Assembly: GCF_900104795.1 (NCBI RefSeq)
Contig: NZ_FNTG01000001.1
Span: forward strand, 4,092,001-4,156,000
Length of the DNA stretch: 64,000 nucleotides
Direction of reading: 5' to 3'
DNA from: Burkholderia sp. WP9
GTDB taxonomy: Bacteria > Pseudomonadota > Gammaproteobacteria > Burkholderiales > Burkholderiaceae
The position numbers were made by a program, and so were the translations under genes. How positions within the stretch are numbered: position 1 is the first letter of the stretch; each line of letters opens with the position of its first letter. Under the pieces are notes generated by a model. That model was not told where the DNA came from and did not search any database. It saw nothing but the letters and a program-made list of their open reading frames with translations. This document shows positions 27,989-48,434 of this stretch, in pieces.

Positions 27989-28774
27989 TCAGAAAAACAT
28001 TCGTGCAAGTTCCACACCCGGCTCGTCCGCGCGCATGAACGCCTCGCCGACCAGGAAAGTATGCACGTCCATTGCGCGCAGGCGCTCCACATCGACGCGC
28101 GACAGAATGCCCGACTCCGTCACGACGATGCGGTCGTCCGGAATCGCTTCGAGCATGCCGATCGTCGTCTCGATCGACGTCTCGAAGGTGCGCAGGTTGC
28201 GATTGTTGATACCGATGAGCGGTGTTTTCAGCGTGAGCGATTCCATCAGTTCGTTCTCGTCGTGCACTTCCACCAGCACCGCCAGACCCAGCGAATGCGC
28301 GAGCGCTTCGAGGTCCTGCATCTGCGACGTTTCGAGCGCGGCGGCGATCAGCAGGATCGCGTCGGCGCCCATCGCGCGGGCTTCGACGATCTGATACGGA
28401 TCGACGATAAAGTCTTTGCGCAGCACCGGCAGACTGCAGGCCGCGCGCGCTTCCTGCAGATACGCGACGCTGCCCTTGAAGAACTGCACGTCGGTGAGCA
28501 CGGACAGGCAGGCCGCGCCGTGTTTTTCGTACGAACGCGCGATCTCGGCCGGCACGAAGTGCTCGCGCAACACGCCTTTGGACGGGCTCGCTTTCTTGAC
28601 TTCGGCGATCACAGCGGCTAGACCCGCCGCGTGTTTCGCGCGCAATGCGCCGACGAAGTCGCGAATGTCGCGCGTCGACGCTTCGAGGCGCAGCTCTTCG
28701 AGCGGCGCGCTTTGTTCTGCCGCACGGACTTCTTCGCGTTTGACCGCGATGATACGGTCGAGGATGTCGCTCAT
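27989..28774 (-). CDS. trpC: Indole-3-glycerol phosphate synthase
   Basis: 261 aa TIM barrel that closes carboxyphenylaminodeoxyribulose-5-phosphate to indole-3-glycerol phosphate. Catalytic [25 protein letters not shown] and [12 protein letters not shown] motifs are present. Single-function, unlike the enteric TrpC-TrpF fusion. Follows trpD by 18 bp. trpF, trpB and trpA are not in this window. Confidence 0.96.
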
Positions 28775-28792
28775 AAGTGTCTCGCTACGTGA

Positions 28793-29824
28793 TTACTGCT
28801 TGAATTGCTGGGTGAAGCGGACCAGCTCGTCGACTTTCGCCCGCGCCTTGCCGCTCGCGATCGCTTCGCGCGCCAACTGGATGCCGTCTGCAATCGACGA
28901 GGCCACGTTCGCCGAATAGAGCGCCGTGCCCGCGTTCAGCGTGACGATTTCGCGGGCCACGCCCGGTTTATTGTCGAGCGCGTCGAGCAGCATCGCTTTG
29001 GATTCGGTGGCGTCGGCCACTTTCAGGGTGCGGTTCGACACCATCTGCATGCCGAAGTCTTCCGGGTGGATTTCGTACTCGTGGACCTGGCCGTCGCGCA
29101 ACTCGCCGACTTGCGTCGCCGCGCCGAGCGAGACTTCGTCCATGCCGTCCATACCGTACACCACGAGTACGTGCTTCGCGCCGAGGCGCTGCATCACGCG
29201 CACCTGAATGCCGACGAGGTCGCCGTGGAACACGCCCATCAGCTGGTTGGGCGCGCCGGCCGGGTTGGTCAGCGGCCCGAGAATGTTGAAGATGGTCCGC
29301 ACGCCGAGTTCGCGGCGCACCGGCGCGATGTTCTTCATGGCCGGATGGTGGTTCGGCGCGAACATAAAGCCCATGCCGGTTTCCGCAATCGAAGCCGCCA
29401 CCTGTTCCGGCTGCAGATCGATATTCACGCCGAGCGCTTCGAGCACGTCCGCGCTGCCTGACTTGCTCGACACGCCGCGGCCGCCGTGTTTCGCGACCTT
29501 GGCGCCCGCCGCGGCCGACACGAACATGGTTGCCGTGGAGATGTTGAAGGTCTGCGAGCCGTCGCCGCCGGTGCCGACGATATCGACGAAGTTCGAGTTG
29601 TCCGGCACGTCGACGTGCCGGGCGAATTCACGCATCACCGTGGCGGCGGCGGTGATTTCGCCGATGGTCTCTTTTTTGACGCGCAAGCCGGTGATGATCG
29701 CCGCCGCCATCACGGGTGAGAGTTCGCCGCGCATGATGAGCCGCATTAAATGCAGCATTTCGTCGTGGAAAATTTCGCGGTGCTCGATGGTCCGTTGCAG
29801 CGCTTCCTGGGGCGTAATCGTCAT
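28793..29824 (-). CDS. trpD: Anthranilate phosphoribosyltransferase
   Basis: 343 aa from [10 protein letters not shown]. Transfers phosphoribose from PRPP to anthranilate. The PRPP-binding [14 protein letters not shown], the [18 protein letters not shown] loop and the anthranilate-pocket segment [12 protein letters not shown] are visible. An upstream in-frame ATG (29845) would overlap the trpG stop region. 17 bp after trpG; part of trpEGDC. Confidence 0.96.
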
Positions 29825-29841
29825 GATGTCGTCTCTCTTCA

Positions 29842-30444
29842 TCAAGCGTTGCGATTGGCCGTTTGCGCGCCGGCGAGCTTCGACTGCTTCACGAAATTTT
29901 CGAGCAGCGCATGGCCGTGTTCGGACAGAATCGATTCCGGGTGGAACTGCACGCCTTCCACGGCCAGTTCCTTGTGACGCACGCCCATGATCTCGCCGTC
30001 TTCAGTCCATGCCGACACTTCGAGGCAATCGGGCAGCGATTCGCGTTCGATCGCGAGCGAGTGATAGCGGGTCACGACGAAGTGTTTCGGCAGGTCGGCG
30101 AACACGCCTTTGCAGTCGGTTTCGATCGTGCTGACCTTGCCGTGCATGATGGTTTGCGCGCGCACCACGCGCCCGCCGAAAGCCTCGCCGATCGCCTGAT
30201 GGCCGAGACAGACGCCGAGAATCGGCGTCTTGCCGCTGAATTCGCGCAGCACGTCGAGCGTGATGCCGGCGTGTTGCGGATTGCTTGGGCCAGGCGAAAG
30301 GCAGATGCGCTCGGGGTTGAGCTTCGCGATTTCGTCCAGCGTGATTTCGTCGTTCCGATAGGTGTGCACGTCTTCGCCGAGTTCGCCGAAGTATTGCACC
30401 AGGTTGTGGGTGAACGAGTCGTAGTTGTCGATCATGAGCAGCAT
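29842..30444 (-). CDS. trpG: Anthranilate synthase glutamine amidotransferase subunit
   Basis: 200 aa class I amidotransferase that feeds ammonia to TrpE. Catalytic triad: Cys in [15 protein letters not shown], and the His and Glu of VQFHPESIL. The oxyanion segment [11 protein letters not shown] is present. 13 bp after trpE. In many bacteria a TrpG of this type also serves aminodeoxychorismate synthase. Confidence 0.96.
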
Positions 30445-30457
30445 GGTGTGTCTCCGG

Positions 30458-31951
30458 TCAGAAGTCGCTATCGAGGCCGTCTTGAACCTGTTCGGCGGCG
30501 CGCAACACGGCGCGTGCCTTGTTCTCGGTCTCTTGCCATTCGGATTCCGGCACCGAATCCGCGACTACACCCGCTGCCGCCTGCACGTACAGATTGCCGT
30601 TCGCGATCACGCCGGTGCGGATCGTGATGGCCAGATCCATTTCGCCGGTGAACGACAGATAACCGACCGCACCGCCATACAGGCCGCGCTTCACGGGTTC
30701 CAGTTCGTCGATCAGTTCCATTGCGCGGACCTTCGGCGCGCCCGACAGCGTGCCGGCCGGGAAGGTGGCGCGCAGCACGTCGAAATTGGTGGTGCCGGGT
30801 TTCAGCTTGCCTTCGACCGAACTCACGATGTGCTGCACGTGCGAGTACTTTTCGATCACCATCTTGTCGGTGACGACAACCGAGCCGATCTGCGCGATGC
30901 GGCCCACGTCGTTACGCGCGAGGTCGATCAGCATGACGTGTTCGGCGATTTCCTTCGGGTCGTTCAGCAGTTCGGTCGCGAGTTCCGCGTCACGTTCCGG
31001 CGTGTTGCCGCGCGGACGCGTGCCGGCGAGCGGCCGGATCGTCACGATTCGATCCTCGCCGCGCTTTTCCTGGCGCACCAGGATTTCCGGCGATGCACCC
31101 ACCACGTGGAAGTCGCCGAAGTTGTAGTAATACATATACGGCGACGGATTCAGCGAGCGCAGCGCGCGATACAGCGAGAGCGGATTGTCGCGGTACGGCT
31201 TGATCAGGCGCTGGCCGACCTGCACCTGCATCAGTTCGCCGGCCGCGATGTATTCCTTCGCCTTGCGCACGGCCGCCAGATAATCGTCTTTCGCGAACTC
31301 GCGATAGGTCTCGGTACGCACGCTGGCCGAAGTGACCGGCGGCTGCACGGTGGTGCGCAAGCGCTGGCGCAATTCCCGCAGACGCTGTTTGGCTTTGGTG
31401 TACGCCTCGGGTTGCGTCGGGTCGGCGTAGATCACCAGATAGAGCTTGCCCGCGAGGTTGTCGATCACTGCGACTTCTTCGGTCAGCAGCAATTGAATGT
31501 CGGGCAGATTCAGATCGTCTTTCGGCGCCGTGTGCGCGAGCTTTTTCTCGATGTAGCGCACCGCGTCGTAGCCAAAATAGCCAGCCAGACCGCCCGCGAA
31601 ACGCGGCAAACCTGGGCGCTGCGCCACTTTGAAACGGCCCTGGAATTGCTGGATGAATTCGAGCGGATCGCCCTCGTGCGTTTCGACGACCTTGCCGTCG
31701 CGCACCACTTCCGACACGCCGTTACGGGTGCGCAGCAGCGTGCGCGCCGGCAGGCCGATGAACGAGTAGCGGCCGAAACGTTCGCCGCCCACCACCGATT
31801 CCAGCAGGAACGAGTTGGCGCCGTTGCGCTCGCTCTGCGCGAGCTTCAGGTACAGCGAGAGCGGCGTTTCGAGGTCGGCGAGCGCTTCGGCGATCAGCGG
31901 GATGCGGTTGAAACCCTCGTTGGCGAGGGACTGGAATTCGAGTTCGGTCAT
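30458..31951 (-). CDS. trpE: Anthranilate synthase component I
   Basis: 497 aa from [13 protein letters not shown]. Makes anthranilate from chorismate and ammonia. The tryptophan feedback-binding LLES motif is present in [11 protein letters not shown], so allosteric inhibition is expected. The chorismate-binding core has [27 protein letters not shown] and [13 protein letters not shown]. First structural gene of trpEGDC. A leader with a Trp-rich peptide and terminator hairpin lies 230-350 bp upstream. Confidence 0.96.
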
Positions 31952-32182
31952 GTTCCGATCCTGTACGGTGGTCCGGCGGCGTGCGTCGGACAAAGCGGGG
32001 CGTAGCGCGCCCGGTCAGGCGTTCGTTCGACGTTTCGACACGATGATACCGACCGGCGCGAGTTTCCCATCGACGCGTGCAAGGGATTTCAGCGCACAGA
32101 TGTACTTTGCGGGTACACGCAGGCCGAATCAACCGATGCAGCGAAACAAAGTGATGGAAAAAACGCGTGAGCGCAGCGAAGT

Positions 32183-32217
32183 AAAAAACGGTTGCCGAAG
32201 ACGAGCTTCAGCGTACC
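32183..32217 (-). terminator. Candidate trp attenuator terminator
   Basis: On the minus strand: GGU, then GCUGAAG, loop CUCGU, CUUCGGC, then ACC, followed by G and U6 (complement of A6 at 32183-32188). That is a 7-bp stem with one G:U pair, a small internal loop and 3 outer pairs. It starts 10 nt after the stop codon of a Trp-rich leader peptide. The upstream ACCUC at 32224-32228 can pair instead with GAGGU at 32215-32219, which would break the outer part of the terminator. Confidence 0.6.
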
Positions 32218-32227
32218 TCAGGCGAGG

Positions 32228-32302
32228 TTAGCGCGACCAGCGACGCCAGGGCCAGGCTCCCCGGTCGATGCTAATCAGACTCCGTTTTTTATTCAGAAAC
32301 AT
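32228..32302 (-). CDS. Candidate trp operon leader peptide (three Trp codons in 24)
   Basis: 24-aa open frame starting ATG at 32302, ending TAA at 32228, with tryptophan at positions 17, 19 and 22 (GAWPWRRWSR end). Three Trp in 24 residues, placed directly before a terminator-like hairpin and upstream of trpE in the same direction, is what a ribosome-mediated attenuator requires. CGACCGG (complement 32261-32267) can pair with CUGGUCG (complement 32234-32240), enclosing the first two Trp codons like the 1:2 pause hairpin. The ribosome binding site is weak (GAAAAG about 12 nt upstream). It would make transcription of trpEGDC depend on charged tRNA-Trp. Too short to be found by usual gene callers. 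Confidence 0.6.
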   Translation of the reverse strand: MFLNKKRSLISIDRGAWPWRRWSR

Positions 32303-32318
32303 GAGGATGAAGGACTTT

Positions 32319-33035
32319 TCAAGTCGTGGATTGGTGCGCTGCGATCGCCTTGGCGGCGTCGAGCAGCGAATCAACTATACCATCGGATTTTATTGTTTGT
32401 ATAGCTTGGCCGTGGTTGTAACCGTAGGGCACCGTTAGCGTGGCCATGCCCGCTGCGCGGCCTGCCAGCGCATCGTTCTCCGAATCACCGATGGCCACCG
32501 TGGCTTGCGGCTCGATGCCCAGTTGCGCTGCGGCGGTGAGCATGGGCAGCGGATCCGGCTTCTTTTTTGCCAGACTGTCGCCGCCGATCACGACGCTGAA
32601 ATATTGCGCGAGCCCGTACTGCTGCAGCAACTCCACCGCGAACCGATGCGGCTTGTTGGTCACGCAGGCGAGTTTGAGTCCGGCGTCGCGCATGGCCTTC
32701 AGGCCGGCTTCGACGTTGGGATAGAGACGGGTGTGCGTGCCGTTGATCTTCGCGTACTCCTCCTGATAGATCGCGAGCGCCTCGTCGAAGCGCTCTTGCG
32801 CATGCTCCGTTTCGAAGCGCGGCGCCAGCACGCTGCGGATCAGATGCTCCGAACCCTTGCCGACATAACCGACCACTTCCTCGCGCGAAGTCTCCTCGGC
32901 GTCGAGCTGCGCGAGCATGCCGTTCAGGCCGGCGGTGAAGTCGTCGGCGGTATCGATCATCGTGCCGTCGAGGTCGATGATCGCGGCTTGCAGGCGCGGG
33001 CCCGTGAAAGCTGGGGCAGGGAACGGAGTGGTCAT
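32319..33035 (-). CDS. gph: Phosphoglycolate phosphatase
   Basis: 238 aa HAD phosphatase that removes 2-phosphoglycolate. Motif I is IIDLDGTMIDT (residues 19-29), motif II CVTNKPHRF, motif III KKKPDPLP and motif IV AIGDSENDALAGRAAGM. Conserved order rpe-gph-trpE, as in other Burkholderia and Pseudomonas. Its last 25 codons contain three ATA isoleucine codons in an A/T-rich patch, rare for this genome and possibly due to an embedded trp promoter. Confidence 0.94.
   Translation of the reverse strand: MTTPFPAPAFTGPRLQAAIIDLDGTMIDTADDFTAGLNGMLAQLDAEETSREEVVGYVGKGSEHLIRSVLAPRFETEHAQERFDEALAIYQEEYAKINGTHTRLYPNVEAGLKAMRDAGLKLACVTNKPHRFAVELLQQYGLAQYFSVVIGGDSLAKKKPDPLPMLTAAAQLGIEPQATVAIGDSENDALAGRAAGMATLTVPYGYNHGQAIQTIKSDGIVDSLLDAAKAIAAHQSTT
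32374..32405 (-). promoter_or_regulatory. A/T-rich inverted repeat in gph tail, possible trp promoter or operator
   Basis: CTATAC and GTATAG arms (32375-32380, 32399-32404) flank an A/T-rich spacer within the gph reading frame. On the minus strand TATAGT (32379-32374) could be the -10 for the trp leader, placing the start about 65 nt before the leader-peptide ATG. No good -35 is seen. Confidence 0.35.
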
Positions 33036-43096: not shown

Positions 43097-44629
<1,533 letters not shown>

Positions 44630-44640
44630 CTCGAGCTAAC

Positions 44641-44675
44641 GCGTCAATGCGTTGAGCGCTCACGCTTATCGGCTG
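44641..44675 (+). other. 3' arm of the 16S rRNA processing stalk
   Basis: Ends CTTATCGGCTG, the reverse complement of the leader segment at 42908-42918; the preceding CGCGTCAATGCG and GAGCGC parts extend the imperfect pairing. Confidence 0.65.
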
Positions 44676-44695
44676 TGAAATTTAGACAGACTCAG

Positions 44696-44772
44696 GGGTC
44701 TGTAGCTCAGTCGGTTAGAGCACCGTCTTGATAAGGCGGGGGTCGATGGTTCGAATCCATCCAGACCCACCA
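44696..44772 (+). tRNA. tRNA-Ile (GAU)
   Basis: 77 nt. Acceptor stem GGGTCTG pairs with CAGACCC, anticodon loop CTTGATAA, GGTTCGAATCC T-arm and encoded CCA. In the 16S-23S spacer. Confidence 0.97.
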
Positions 44773-44840
44773 AAGTCTTGTCTGGTGTGCTGATCGATAA
44801 CCTCTGGGTATCAACAGGTAGAGATTATCTGTGCATGACT

Positions 44841-44916
44841 GGGGGATTAGCTCAGCTGGGAGAGCACCTGCTTTGCAAGCAGGGGGTCGTCGGTTCGATC
44901 CCGTCATCCTCCACCA
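44841..44916 (+). tRNA. tRNA-Ala (UGC)
   Basis: 76 nt. Acceptor stem GGGGGAT pairs with ATCCTCC (one G:U), anticodon loop TTTGCAA, T-arm GGTTCGATCCC and encoded CCA. 68 bp after tRNA-Ile in the rRNA spacer. Confidence 0.97.
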
Positions 44917-45236
44917 ATCCTCAATGCGTAGCGTTCTGTGAGAAAGCAGAGCGTTGTGCATTGGCGATTGAGCCAGTCAGAGTGATACGCGGTTATAGCA
45001 ACTGCGATATCGGCTGTCGTTCTTTAACAATCAGGAAGAAGTAGTAAAGAGATTCACGAAAGATCACTTAGAGATGGGTGATTGAGTAGGTGAATCAGGG
45101 TTGTGATTGTATCAATGTATGAAAAGGTGATCGAAAGATTGCCTTGGAATACGGCGCAACACGAATACTCAACCTGTAGCGATTGTGGCGAGCGTGTGAT
45201 TCCCAGTGGATCACACATGAGACACACCCGTTATAG
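44917..45236 (+). other. tRNA-Ala to 23S spacer with boxA and processing arm
   Basis: 320 bp without a gene. GTTCTTTAACAAT (45019-45031) matches the boxA antitermination site. GACACACCCGTTATAGG from 45221 begins the 23S processing stalk. Confidence 0.75.

Positions 45237-45244
<8 letters not shown>
45221..45244 (+). other. 5' arm of the 23S rRNA processing stalk
   Basis: 24 nt that pair along their full length with 48106-48129, with only two G:U pairs. The stalk includes the first bases of mature 23S. Confidence 0.8.
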
Positions 45245-48105
<2,861 letters not shown>

Positions 48106-48115
<10 letters not shown>

Positions 48116-48129
48116 ATAACAGGTGTGTC
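48106..48129 (+). other. 3' arm of the 23S rRNA processing stalk
   Basis: GCTTGATCC followed by TATAACAGGTGTGTC, complementary to 45221-45244. Confidence 0.8.
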
Positions 48130-48320
48130 TTGCGATGATCGTTAGTGCTTCAGCACTTACGAGCATCCCACCCCCGAAGGGGGCAGGGACGCCACACACG
48201 GTTGAGATCAGTGTTGTGCCAGAAACAACACAACCCCAAGCTTGCCTGGTGAGCATCACCAGAAACTACTTCTTCCAGATTGGTTGGGCTGTCCCCAAAG
48301 ACAGCGCAGCAACAAGTCAT

Positions 48321-48434
48321 GCCTGATGACCATAGCGAGTCGGTCCCACCCCTTCCCATCCCGAACAGGACCGTGAAACGACTCCACGCCGATGATAGTG
48401 CGGATTCCCGTGTGAAAGTAGGTAATCGTCAGGC
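48321..48434 (+). rRNA. 5S ribosomal RNA
   Basis: About 114 nt. GCCTGATGAC pairs with GTCAGGC at the 3' end; loop segments CCCATCCCGAACAGG and CCGATGATAGTG are typical. Closest neighbour of a strong terminator. Confidence 0.95.

Follow-up and report, generated by a model that had tools for sequence, protein, structure and literature searches.

Tryptophan locus and leader ORF

The question raised by this locus is what lies between gph and the tryptophan genes trpEGDC, and how it would set the expression of these genes. A predicted tryptophan-sensing RNA switch precedes the Paraburkholderia tryptophan genes and is conserved in relatives, and the logic of the switch is that of the known trp attenuators. 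It very probably attenuates transcription of trpEGDC in response to Trp, by way of a ribosome on the leader, and it contains one further part, a long-range helix. The window (the whole stretch of DNA analysed, 64 kb) contained the leader and the following genes, and the closest named relatives by TrpE were Paraburkholderia and Burkholderia.

32319..33035, minus strand: gph, phosphoglycolate phosphatase, the upstream gene that carries the putative promoter (NCBIfam TIGR01449 and NF009695 above cut-off)
32228..32302, minus strand: trpL leader ORF of 24 codons with Trp17, Trp19 and Trp22, without a Shine-Dalgarno (24 codons in 108/108 sequences)
30458..31951, minus strand: trpE, the first structural gene, with its ATG at 31951 (NCBIfam TIGR00564 above cut-off)
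27989..30444, minus strand: trpG, trpD and trpC (NCBIfam TIGR00566, TIGR01245 and NF001373 above cut-off)

A first-pass annotation had placed a 24-codon frame with Trp at positions 17, 19 and 22 upstream of trpEGDC. The genes gph, trpE, trpG, trpD and trpC were all called by NCBIfam, and the frame was found as described, encoding MFLNKKRSLISIDRGAWPWRRWSR followed by the stop, from ATG at 32302 to TAA at 32228 on the minus strand between gph and trpEGDC. Within the 64-kb window, on both strands, this was the sole ATG-started ORF of 15-40 codons with at least 3 Trp in its last ten codons. The window also holds, on the plus strand at 43097-48434, an entire rRNA operon (16S, two tRNAs, 23S and 5S).

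Occurrence of the leader

The leader was present in 115/115 genus loci reached through trpE (L001-L035 and L140-L219), some of which represent one strain under two handles. A total of 153 loci yielded a leader; comparison of the ORF plus the 100 nt that follow left 113 different leaders, 108 of them of the window's type and the other five from family f8. The set of 108 was chosen by a motif that includes Trp17 and Trp19, and no genus sequence was lost thereby. Conservation of the Trp codons, a check proposed with the first-pass annotation, was borne out by the distinct sequences (Trp17 and Trp19 in 108/108, Trp22 in 106/108). The stop codon was TAA in 102 and TGA in 6 of the 108. The exact 27-nt pattern of the ORF start occurred in 138/144 genus genomes, once per genome save for one genome with two copies on two contigs. 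A covariance model of the element gave one match at E <= 10 in the 9.02-Mb genome, located at the leader (150 of 5333 candidates scored).

Across the order, 76/103 sampled genomes had, upstream of trpE, an ATG-started ORF 10-40 codons long that carries paired Trp towards its end, and the reverse-strand control for such Trp-rich leader-like ORFs returned 1/103 genomes. The order-wide search with covariance model R1 under stricter filters matched 6/300 genomes at E <= 0.01, of which one was from family f49 and five, counting the genome of the window, were from the window's family; since R1 did not reach f8, that family was examined through trpE. No Rfam covariance model, that of the Trp leader family included, matched the leader in the window at gathering, and none matched at E <= 5 for 31900-32450. 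Pfam and NCBIfam returned 0 families at E <= 10 for the window's leader peptide and three others, which are peptides so short that the HMMER filters may drop them.

Promoter and ribosome entry

32398..32403, minus strand: weak -35-like hexamer TATACA, 18 bp from the -10 and 4/6 to TTGACA (sequence reading only)
32374..32382, minus strand: putative extended -10 promoter element TGGTATAGT inside the gph 3' end, with a predicted start near 32367 (invariant rare codons)

The gph codons for Asp-Gly-Ile-Val read GATGGTATAGT, with Ile as ATA in 108/108 and Gly as GGT in 108/108, while ATA accounted for 2/567 upstream Ile codons of the same loci (a background not trimmed to the gph start). These invariant rare gph codons indicate a promoter upstream of the leader, and transcription from upstream of 32302, which the first-pass reading depends on, is thus pointed to by a conserved element inside gph. 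The extended -10 predicts a transcript start near 32367, about 65 nt 5' of the leader ATG; the exact start base is an estimate. The hexamer TATAGT was located at most 80 nt upstream of the leader in 25/41 f8 leaders. The main text of a B. cenocepacia transcript-start paper contains neither trpE nor tryptophan (PMC4603805).

The first-pass annotation described a modest ribosome binding site before the leader. The comparison revised this to no Shine-Dalgarno, given that only 1/108 sequences has any of five Shine-Dalgarno 4-mers at -18..-4; the same test before trpE in the same loci was positive in 107/107, and in family f8 the 4-mers were found before 0/41 leaders. A leaderless start in the window's genus was considered because there is no Shine-Dalgarno and was found unsupported, as the conserved promoter element lies further up. 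The transcript is accordingly not predicted to begin at the leader ATG, as an RNA of the rnTrpL type does. A short inverted repeat, GACUUGAAAAGUC, lies just 5' of the leader ATG at 32313-32325 on the minus strand, overlapping the gph stop codon; among the rows listed it was present in many Paraburkholderia rows and altered in Burkholderia rows.

Terminator, antiterminator and ribosome position

32224..32228, minus strand: antiterminator 5' arm ACCUC, starting with the last stop-codon base (matched in 108/108; ribosome-mask folding)
32215..32219, minus strand: antiterminator 3' arm GAGGU, whose GGU doubles as the lower terminator stem (matched in 108/108)
32194..32212, minus strand: upper terminator hairpin GCUGAAG-loop-CUUCGGC (98.4% of cells paired in 36 sequences)
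32190..32192, minus strand: ACC, the lower-stem partner of GGU 32217-32215, whose CC is shared with the long-range helix (stem matching and folding)
32183..32188, minus strand: U6, the U run of the intrinsic terminator (5 or 6 U in each of the 108 genus-type sequences)

The hairpin ending in U6 that had been proposed was recovered, with arms GCUGAAG (32212-32206) and CUUCGGC (32200-32194), then AACCG, then U6 at 32188-32183. For this hairpin to adjoin the U tract, GGU (32217-32215) must pair with ACC (32192-32190) as well. The 7-bp stem was conserved in 103/108 sequences; four of the remaining five carried near variants and L025 another hairpin. Three pairs of the upper hairpin had changes on both sides in the 36 sequences. 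The proposed alternative pairing of ACCUC (32228-32224) with GAGGU (32219-32215) is complementary, both arms being located by regular expression in every one of the 108. Folding of 32171-32330 gave z = -2.99, with 2/200 shuffles folding at least as well. A further hairpin around Trp17 and Trp19, also part of the first-pass annotation, appeared in that fold; comparison speaks neither for nor against it, since its sequence hardly varies and covariation therefore gives no information. Immediately 3' of the U tract, at 32171-32182 on the minus strand, stands ACUUCGCUGCGC, which was conserved with small changes in most rows listed, more than the helix requires.

The effect of ribosome position was modelled in 10 sequences by folding the RNA to the base before U6 with a ribosome masking -15 to +15 nt, in a thermodynamic model that ignores kinetics. 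In the free RNA the antiterminator had a modelled probability of 0.94-1.00; a ribosome placed at Trp17 left it at 0.81-1.00 and one at Trp19 at 0.97-1.00 (10/10). With the ribosome at Trp22 it was at most 0.35 in 8/9 sequences having this codon, while L016 stayed at 1.00, and with the ribosome at the stop codon it was 0.00 in 10/10. Trp22 is too close to the antiterminator arm to favour it, which fits the loss of Trp22 in L027 and L207. The lower terminator stem with the ribosome at the stop codon had a modelled probability of 0.55-0.91 in 6/10 sequences and 0.00-0.33 in the other 4/10 (L022, L215, L016 and L027, where the stem indexing of L016 may be off). The terminator is weak in this model, its lower stem comprising only 2-3 bp and staying below 0.5 at the stop codon in those four sequences. 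No protector hairpin hiding ACCUC in the untranslated leader (the 1:2 type of E. coli) was seen in the modelled folds (10/10), and read-through is therefore predicted when the leader is not translated; a protector hairpin is not taken as defining for attenuators in general.

The features expected of an attenuator were thus found as follows. A short ORF with clustered Trp codons lies directly before the trp genes, and an intrinsic terminator, recognised by sequence and with a short lower stem, lies between the leader and the first gene. In the modelled folds an exclusive antiterminator is switched by ribosome position, with the terminator side below 0.5 in 4/10. The reading of ribosome-mediated attenuation given in the first-pass annotation draws support from the Trp codons, both arms, the terminator, the promoter element and the mask folding, and such attenuation at trpEGDC is well supported as a prediction from sequence.

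We infer the Trp response and the order of events as follows. Transcription would begin inside gph, and the ribosome would enter the leader without a Shine-Dalgarno. When Trp-tRNA is scarce, the ribosome would stall at Trp17 or Trp19 and ACCUC would pair with GAGGU; once formed, this pairing would block the lower stem GGU:ACC, and RNA polymerase would read into trpE. When Trp-tRNA is plentiful, the ribosome at the stop codon would cover ACCUC, and the terminator would form beside U6. Once the tail has been made, codons 4-7 would pair with CCGUUUUUUR and close the leader end to end.

Long-range helix between leader codons and terminator tail

32282..32293, minus strand: putative long-range helix 5' arm, codons 4-7 AAU AAA AAA CGG, with the last 10 nt as the paired core (covariation)
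32182..32191, minus strand: putative long-range helix 3' arm, CCG UUUUUU A at the terminator tail, CCGUUUUUUR (covariation)

The helix between codons 4-7 and the tail is an addition to the first-pass annotation, which had missed a helix with the U tract. It was tested by an unbiased scan of column pairs for changes on the same branches of the trpE tree, using a 102-taxon alignment of 189 columns (119 variable). The pair formed by the third base of codon 4 and the base that follows U6 ranked first by p among the 1952 column pairs sharing a change, with 7 and 8 changes of which 6 were shared against 0.44 expected (p 6.9e-6, a Poisson estimate). All six shared changes kept Watson-Crick pairing, by which measure the pair was also first, and 97/102 taxa were paired; the runner-up by Watson-Crick-preserving changes had 3 (p 0.12). 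On the joint tree of 123 taxa the two positions had 12 and 10 changes, 8 of them on the same branches, with 118 taxa paired (two by wobble) and 5 unpaired.

Among 36 sequences, 91.6% of helix cells were paired, and the helix and upper terminator together were 94.1% paired, compared with 41.5-60.4% when slid by 1-3 columns. Six of the twelve helix pairs were invariant, one had changes on both sides, and pair 11:152 was unpaired in 26/36; in the same 36 sequences, further pair types over both helices were not above shuffles (424/500 as high). These results set the working core at 10 bp and leave the genus covariation resting on one pair. Codons 5 and 6 were AAA in 106 and 107 of the 108 sequences, codon 7 was CGG in 108/108 and codon 4 was AAU in 90, while five neighbouring genes favour other codons, namely AAG (36 vs 26), CGC (70 vs 9) and AAC (37 vs 11). 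When duplex energies of own partners were compared with swapped partners in the window's family, 0/20000 permutations were as good (n=108; the test ignores relatedness). In full-length folds the probability of CGG:CCG was at least 0.9 in 8/9 sequences and at most 0.06 in L205.

In family f8, the sample comprised 41 leaders, and 11/52 loci gave none to the pattern. This family rebuilds the helix with other letters. Where A6 and U6 were in register, codon 4 base 3 was paired with the base following U6 in 20/20 leaders (CG 13, TA 6, TG 1). Of the three bases of codon 7, the first forms a pair in 18 of these 20, the second in 9 and the third in 7, and pairs beyond codon 4 base 3 form in only 5 and 3. 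Several leaders pair a CGU codon 7 with ACG, and L280 pairs CGC with GCG. An A run of at least 5 was found in 29/30 leaders with a U run of at least 5 and in 2/11 without such a U run, the exceptions being two genomes with an A tract and no U run and one with a U run and no A tract.

Some broken f8 tails were matched by the arm, as with ACAACAAACG and CGUUUGUUGU in L062 and L281, and AUAACAAACG and UGUUUGUUAU, with one wobble, in L057. The runs of 7 in L055, L060, L250 and L258 come from a search spanning 80 nt and may be fortuitous, and the longest runs in L256, L257, L275, L282 and L286 were 6 or less. By wide-stretch duplex energy, only L062 and L281 among the 11 broken-tail leaders ranked their own tail first of 41, whereas L057 ranked its own 20th and L055 35th of 41. 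For own against swapped partners in f8, 1/20000 permutations were as good with the tail alone (n=29) and 0/20000 with the wider stretch (n=41), both in tests that ignore relatedness.

Comparison of sequences demonstrates the helix, as it does the ORF, the two arms and the promoter element. It lies 6-18 nt behind the AUG, within reach of the initiating ribosome. The U tract is inside RNA polymerase during transcription, so the helix probably forms after the decision, the release of the tail from the polymerase being the earliest point at which it could do so. Its most likely job would be to block new ribosomes on the leader once the tail is made, and most likely it would also cover the 3' end of the released RNA. 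Leader codons of family f15, ACUGAAA(AG), have a complement in a U-rich tail further down (L093, L094 and L106, with runs of 11, 9 and 7, some with wobble), which is another pairing of leader codons with a U run.

Alternative explanations

It is very improbable that the hairpin and U6 are simply the end-of-operon terminator of gph and the small ORF a chance frame. The hairpin does stand about 105 nt after the gph stop codon on the same strand, as such a terminator might. A promoter element nevertheless sits between the body of gph and the ORF, and the ORF length, start, Trp17 and Trp19 are invariant in 108 sequences while their surroundings vary. Leader-like ORFs upstream of trpE also far outnumber those of the reverse-strand control across the order. 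A chance ORF with a plain gph terminator was therefore rejected on the promoter element, the order-wide leaders and the invariant ORF. For the helix, the match of A6 with U6 might be a by-product, given that A-rich codons aid starts that lack a Shine-Dalgarno and intrinsic terminators carry a U tract. Each tract then has a plain reason to exist, and the near-invariance of the two AAA codons and the invariance of six of the twelve pairs suit this explanation. It has only a slight probability, since the third base of codon 4 and the base just beyond the U tract change on the same branches with Watson-Crick pairing kept. Codon 7, CGG throughout the 108, also stands opposite mostly CCG, with the combinations CGU/ACG and CGC/GCG in f8 (where codon 7 pairs in under half), and a broken A tract stands opposite some of the broken U tracts.

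Other alternatives accept the helix and assign it another job. The helix might be a part of the terminator that draws the U tract from RNA polymerase, so that termination needs codons 4-7 to be free of ribosomes. The upper hairpin alone stops 4-5 nt short of U6 in most sequences, the helix would stack beside it, and the tails of L057, L062 and L281 remain paired despite a broken U run. At the point of intrinsic termination, however, CCG and U6 are still inside the RNA-DNA hybrid, and the helix competes with the GG:CC lower stem for CC; this role is considered unlikely. It is also rather doubtful that the released leader is a stable trans-acting RNA whose ends are joined by the helix for stability. 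In 8/9 folds the helix closes the RNA predicted to result from termination, and rnTrpL of S. meliloti acts in trans (PMC7298713), but that RNA starts at the ATG (PMC7298713) while a 5' UTR of about 65 nt is predicted for the window. The preferred reading remains transcription attenuation, with a helix that would close the leader to new ribosomes after the decision.

Pairing with the trpE ribosome site in other families

Among 67 other leader-like ORFs of the order, 16 had a Watson-Crick run of at least 8 between their first 36 nt and the stretch to trpE, against 3.4% in the swapped-pair control, and in several of these 16 leaders the target was the trpE Shine-Dalgarno. Two families were sampled further, f26 with 27 leaders in 30 loci examined (L299-L328) of 39 genomes with trpE, and f5 with 22 leaders in 30 loci examined (L329-L358; 7 without a leader and 1 not oriented) of 40 genomes with trpE. 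In both, codons 3-8 are complementary to the trpE Shine-Dalgarno and the leader ORFs lie close upstream of trpE. In L042, one of the 16 of 67, the start of the leader and the region preceding trpE make up a perfect inverted repeat of 27 bp, which probably stems from a repeated element taken over as a leader.

In f26 the own duplexes with the last 30 nt before trpE had a mean energy of -16.5 kcal/mol compared with -10.8 permuted (0/20000), and 9/27 leaders ranked their own partner first; a control stretch further up gave no signal (n=10, 3986/5000). In f5 the corresponding energies were -15.9 and -14.0 (0/20000, without a control stretch), with 2/22 ranking their own partner first. With a ribosome at the first Trp codon, the modelled mean unpaired probability of the trpE Shine-Dalgarno in f5 rose from 0.03 to 0.30, with a rise above 0.2 in 14/22 leaders and a fall in none; it was hardly raised with the ribosome at the last Trp codon (0.07) or at the stop (0.05). 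The modelled effect was smaller in f26, from 0.12 to 0.21 with a rise in 8/27. A U run of 6 between the leader and trpE was found in 3/27 f26 and 1/22 f5 leaders.

In translational attenuators of the erm/cat type, a ribosome stalled on the leader ORF frees a Shine-Dalgarno. The findings in f26 and f5 suggest a similar logic, namely Trp-dependent translational attenuation. This is not the mechanism of the window, where the early codons lack own-partner pairing with the trpE ribosome site; such pairing was tried for the window's leader and rejected (own -13.27, permuted -13.36, 4038/5000 as good, n=108). In f8 the own-partner signal for this site was weak (105/5000, n=40).

Burkholderiales Trp leaders may share a docking arm at codons 3-8 that pairs with a downstream element setting trpE expression, a tentative reading that falls a little short of an even call. 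In such a design, the partner would be the terminator tail in the window's family and f8 and the trpE Shine-Dalgarno in f26 and f5, where it would be exposed by a ribosome that stalls at the first Trp codon.

Family f49 was noted for TGCTACACT, an extended -10 that ends 6-9 nt before the leader ATG in 5/7 loci (L065, L066, L069, L074 and L076), a placement that fits a putative leaderless trpL transcript.

Relation to known systems

The E. coli trpL system is alike in that a short ORF carrying control Trp codons precedes the trp genes, that terminator and antiterminator exclude one another, and that the position of the ribosome makes the decision. Leader peptide synthesis in E. coli is reportedly limited by pairing with the distal part of the transcript (Das et al. 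1983). A helix comparable to that of the window was sought in E. coli trpL and rejected, as the longest Watson-Crick run between the leader start and the downstream leader was only 6 nt. The window differs from E. coli trpL in that the competition concerns just the lower 2-3 bp of its terminator and in that no Shine-Dalgarno precedes the leader. It also differs in that the untranslated leader is predicted to read through, whereas the untranslated E. coli leader terminates, I:II and III:IV being formed (PMC1183508). The trpLE(G) system of Sinorhizobium meliloti, with rnTrpL and peTrpL, is alike in its Trp leader before trpE with transcription attenuation (PMC7298713), and differs in that its RNA begins at the leader ATG, while a UTR of about 65 nt is predicted here.

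Among the matches listed in a full-text literature search, no paper had the Burkholderia trp leader as its subject by title or abstract. The comparative genomics of attenuators of amino-acid operons in proteobacteria is, judging by its title, the subject of Vitreschak et al. 2004, which PMC1262725 and PMC1183508 cite, and the Burkholderia trp leader may already be included there. The codon-to-tail helix did not turn up in literature searches, which were made in terms other than the helix itself.

Biological meaning

Attenuation by Trp is a textbook mechanism, yet Rfam, Pfam and NCBIfam are all without a match to its Burkholderiaceae form. As the covarying helix indicates, selection can act on the opening codons of a leader ORF as RNA, beyond their use as a track for the ribosome. 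If the docking-arm design is true, a single arm gated by the ribosome would yield both transcriptional and Trp-dependent translational attenuation as its outputs. The families whose leader masks the trpE start site with the same stretch would form a natural series from translational to transcriptional control under one signal and, if confirmed, would show how attenuators switch output in evolution.
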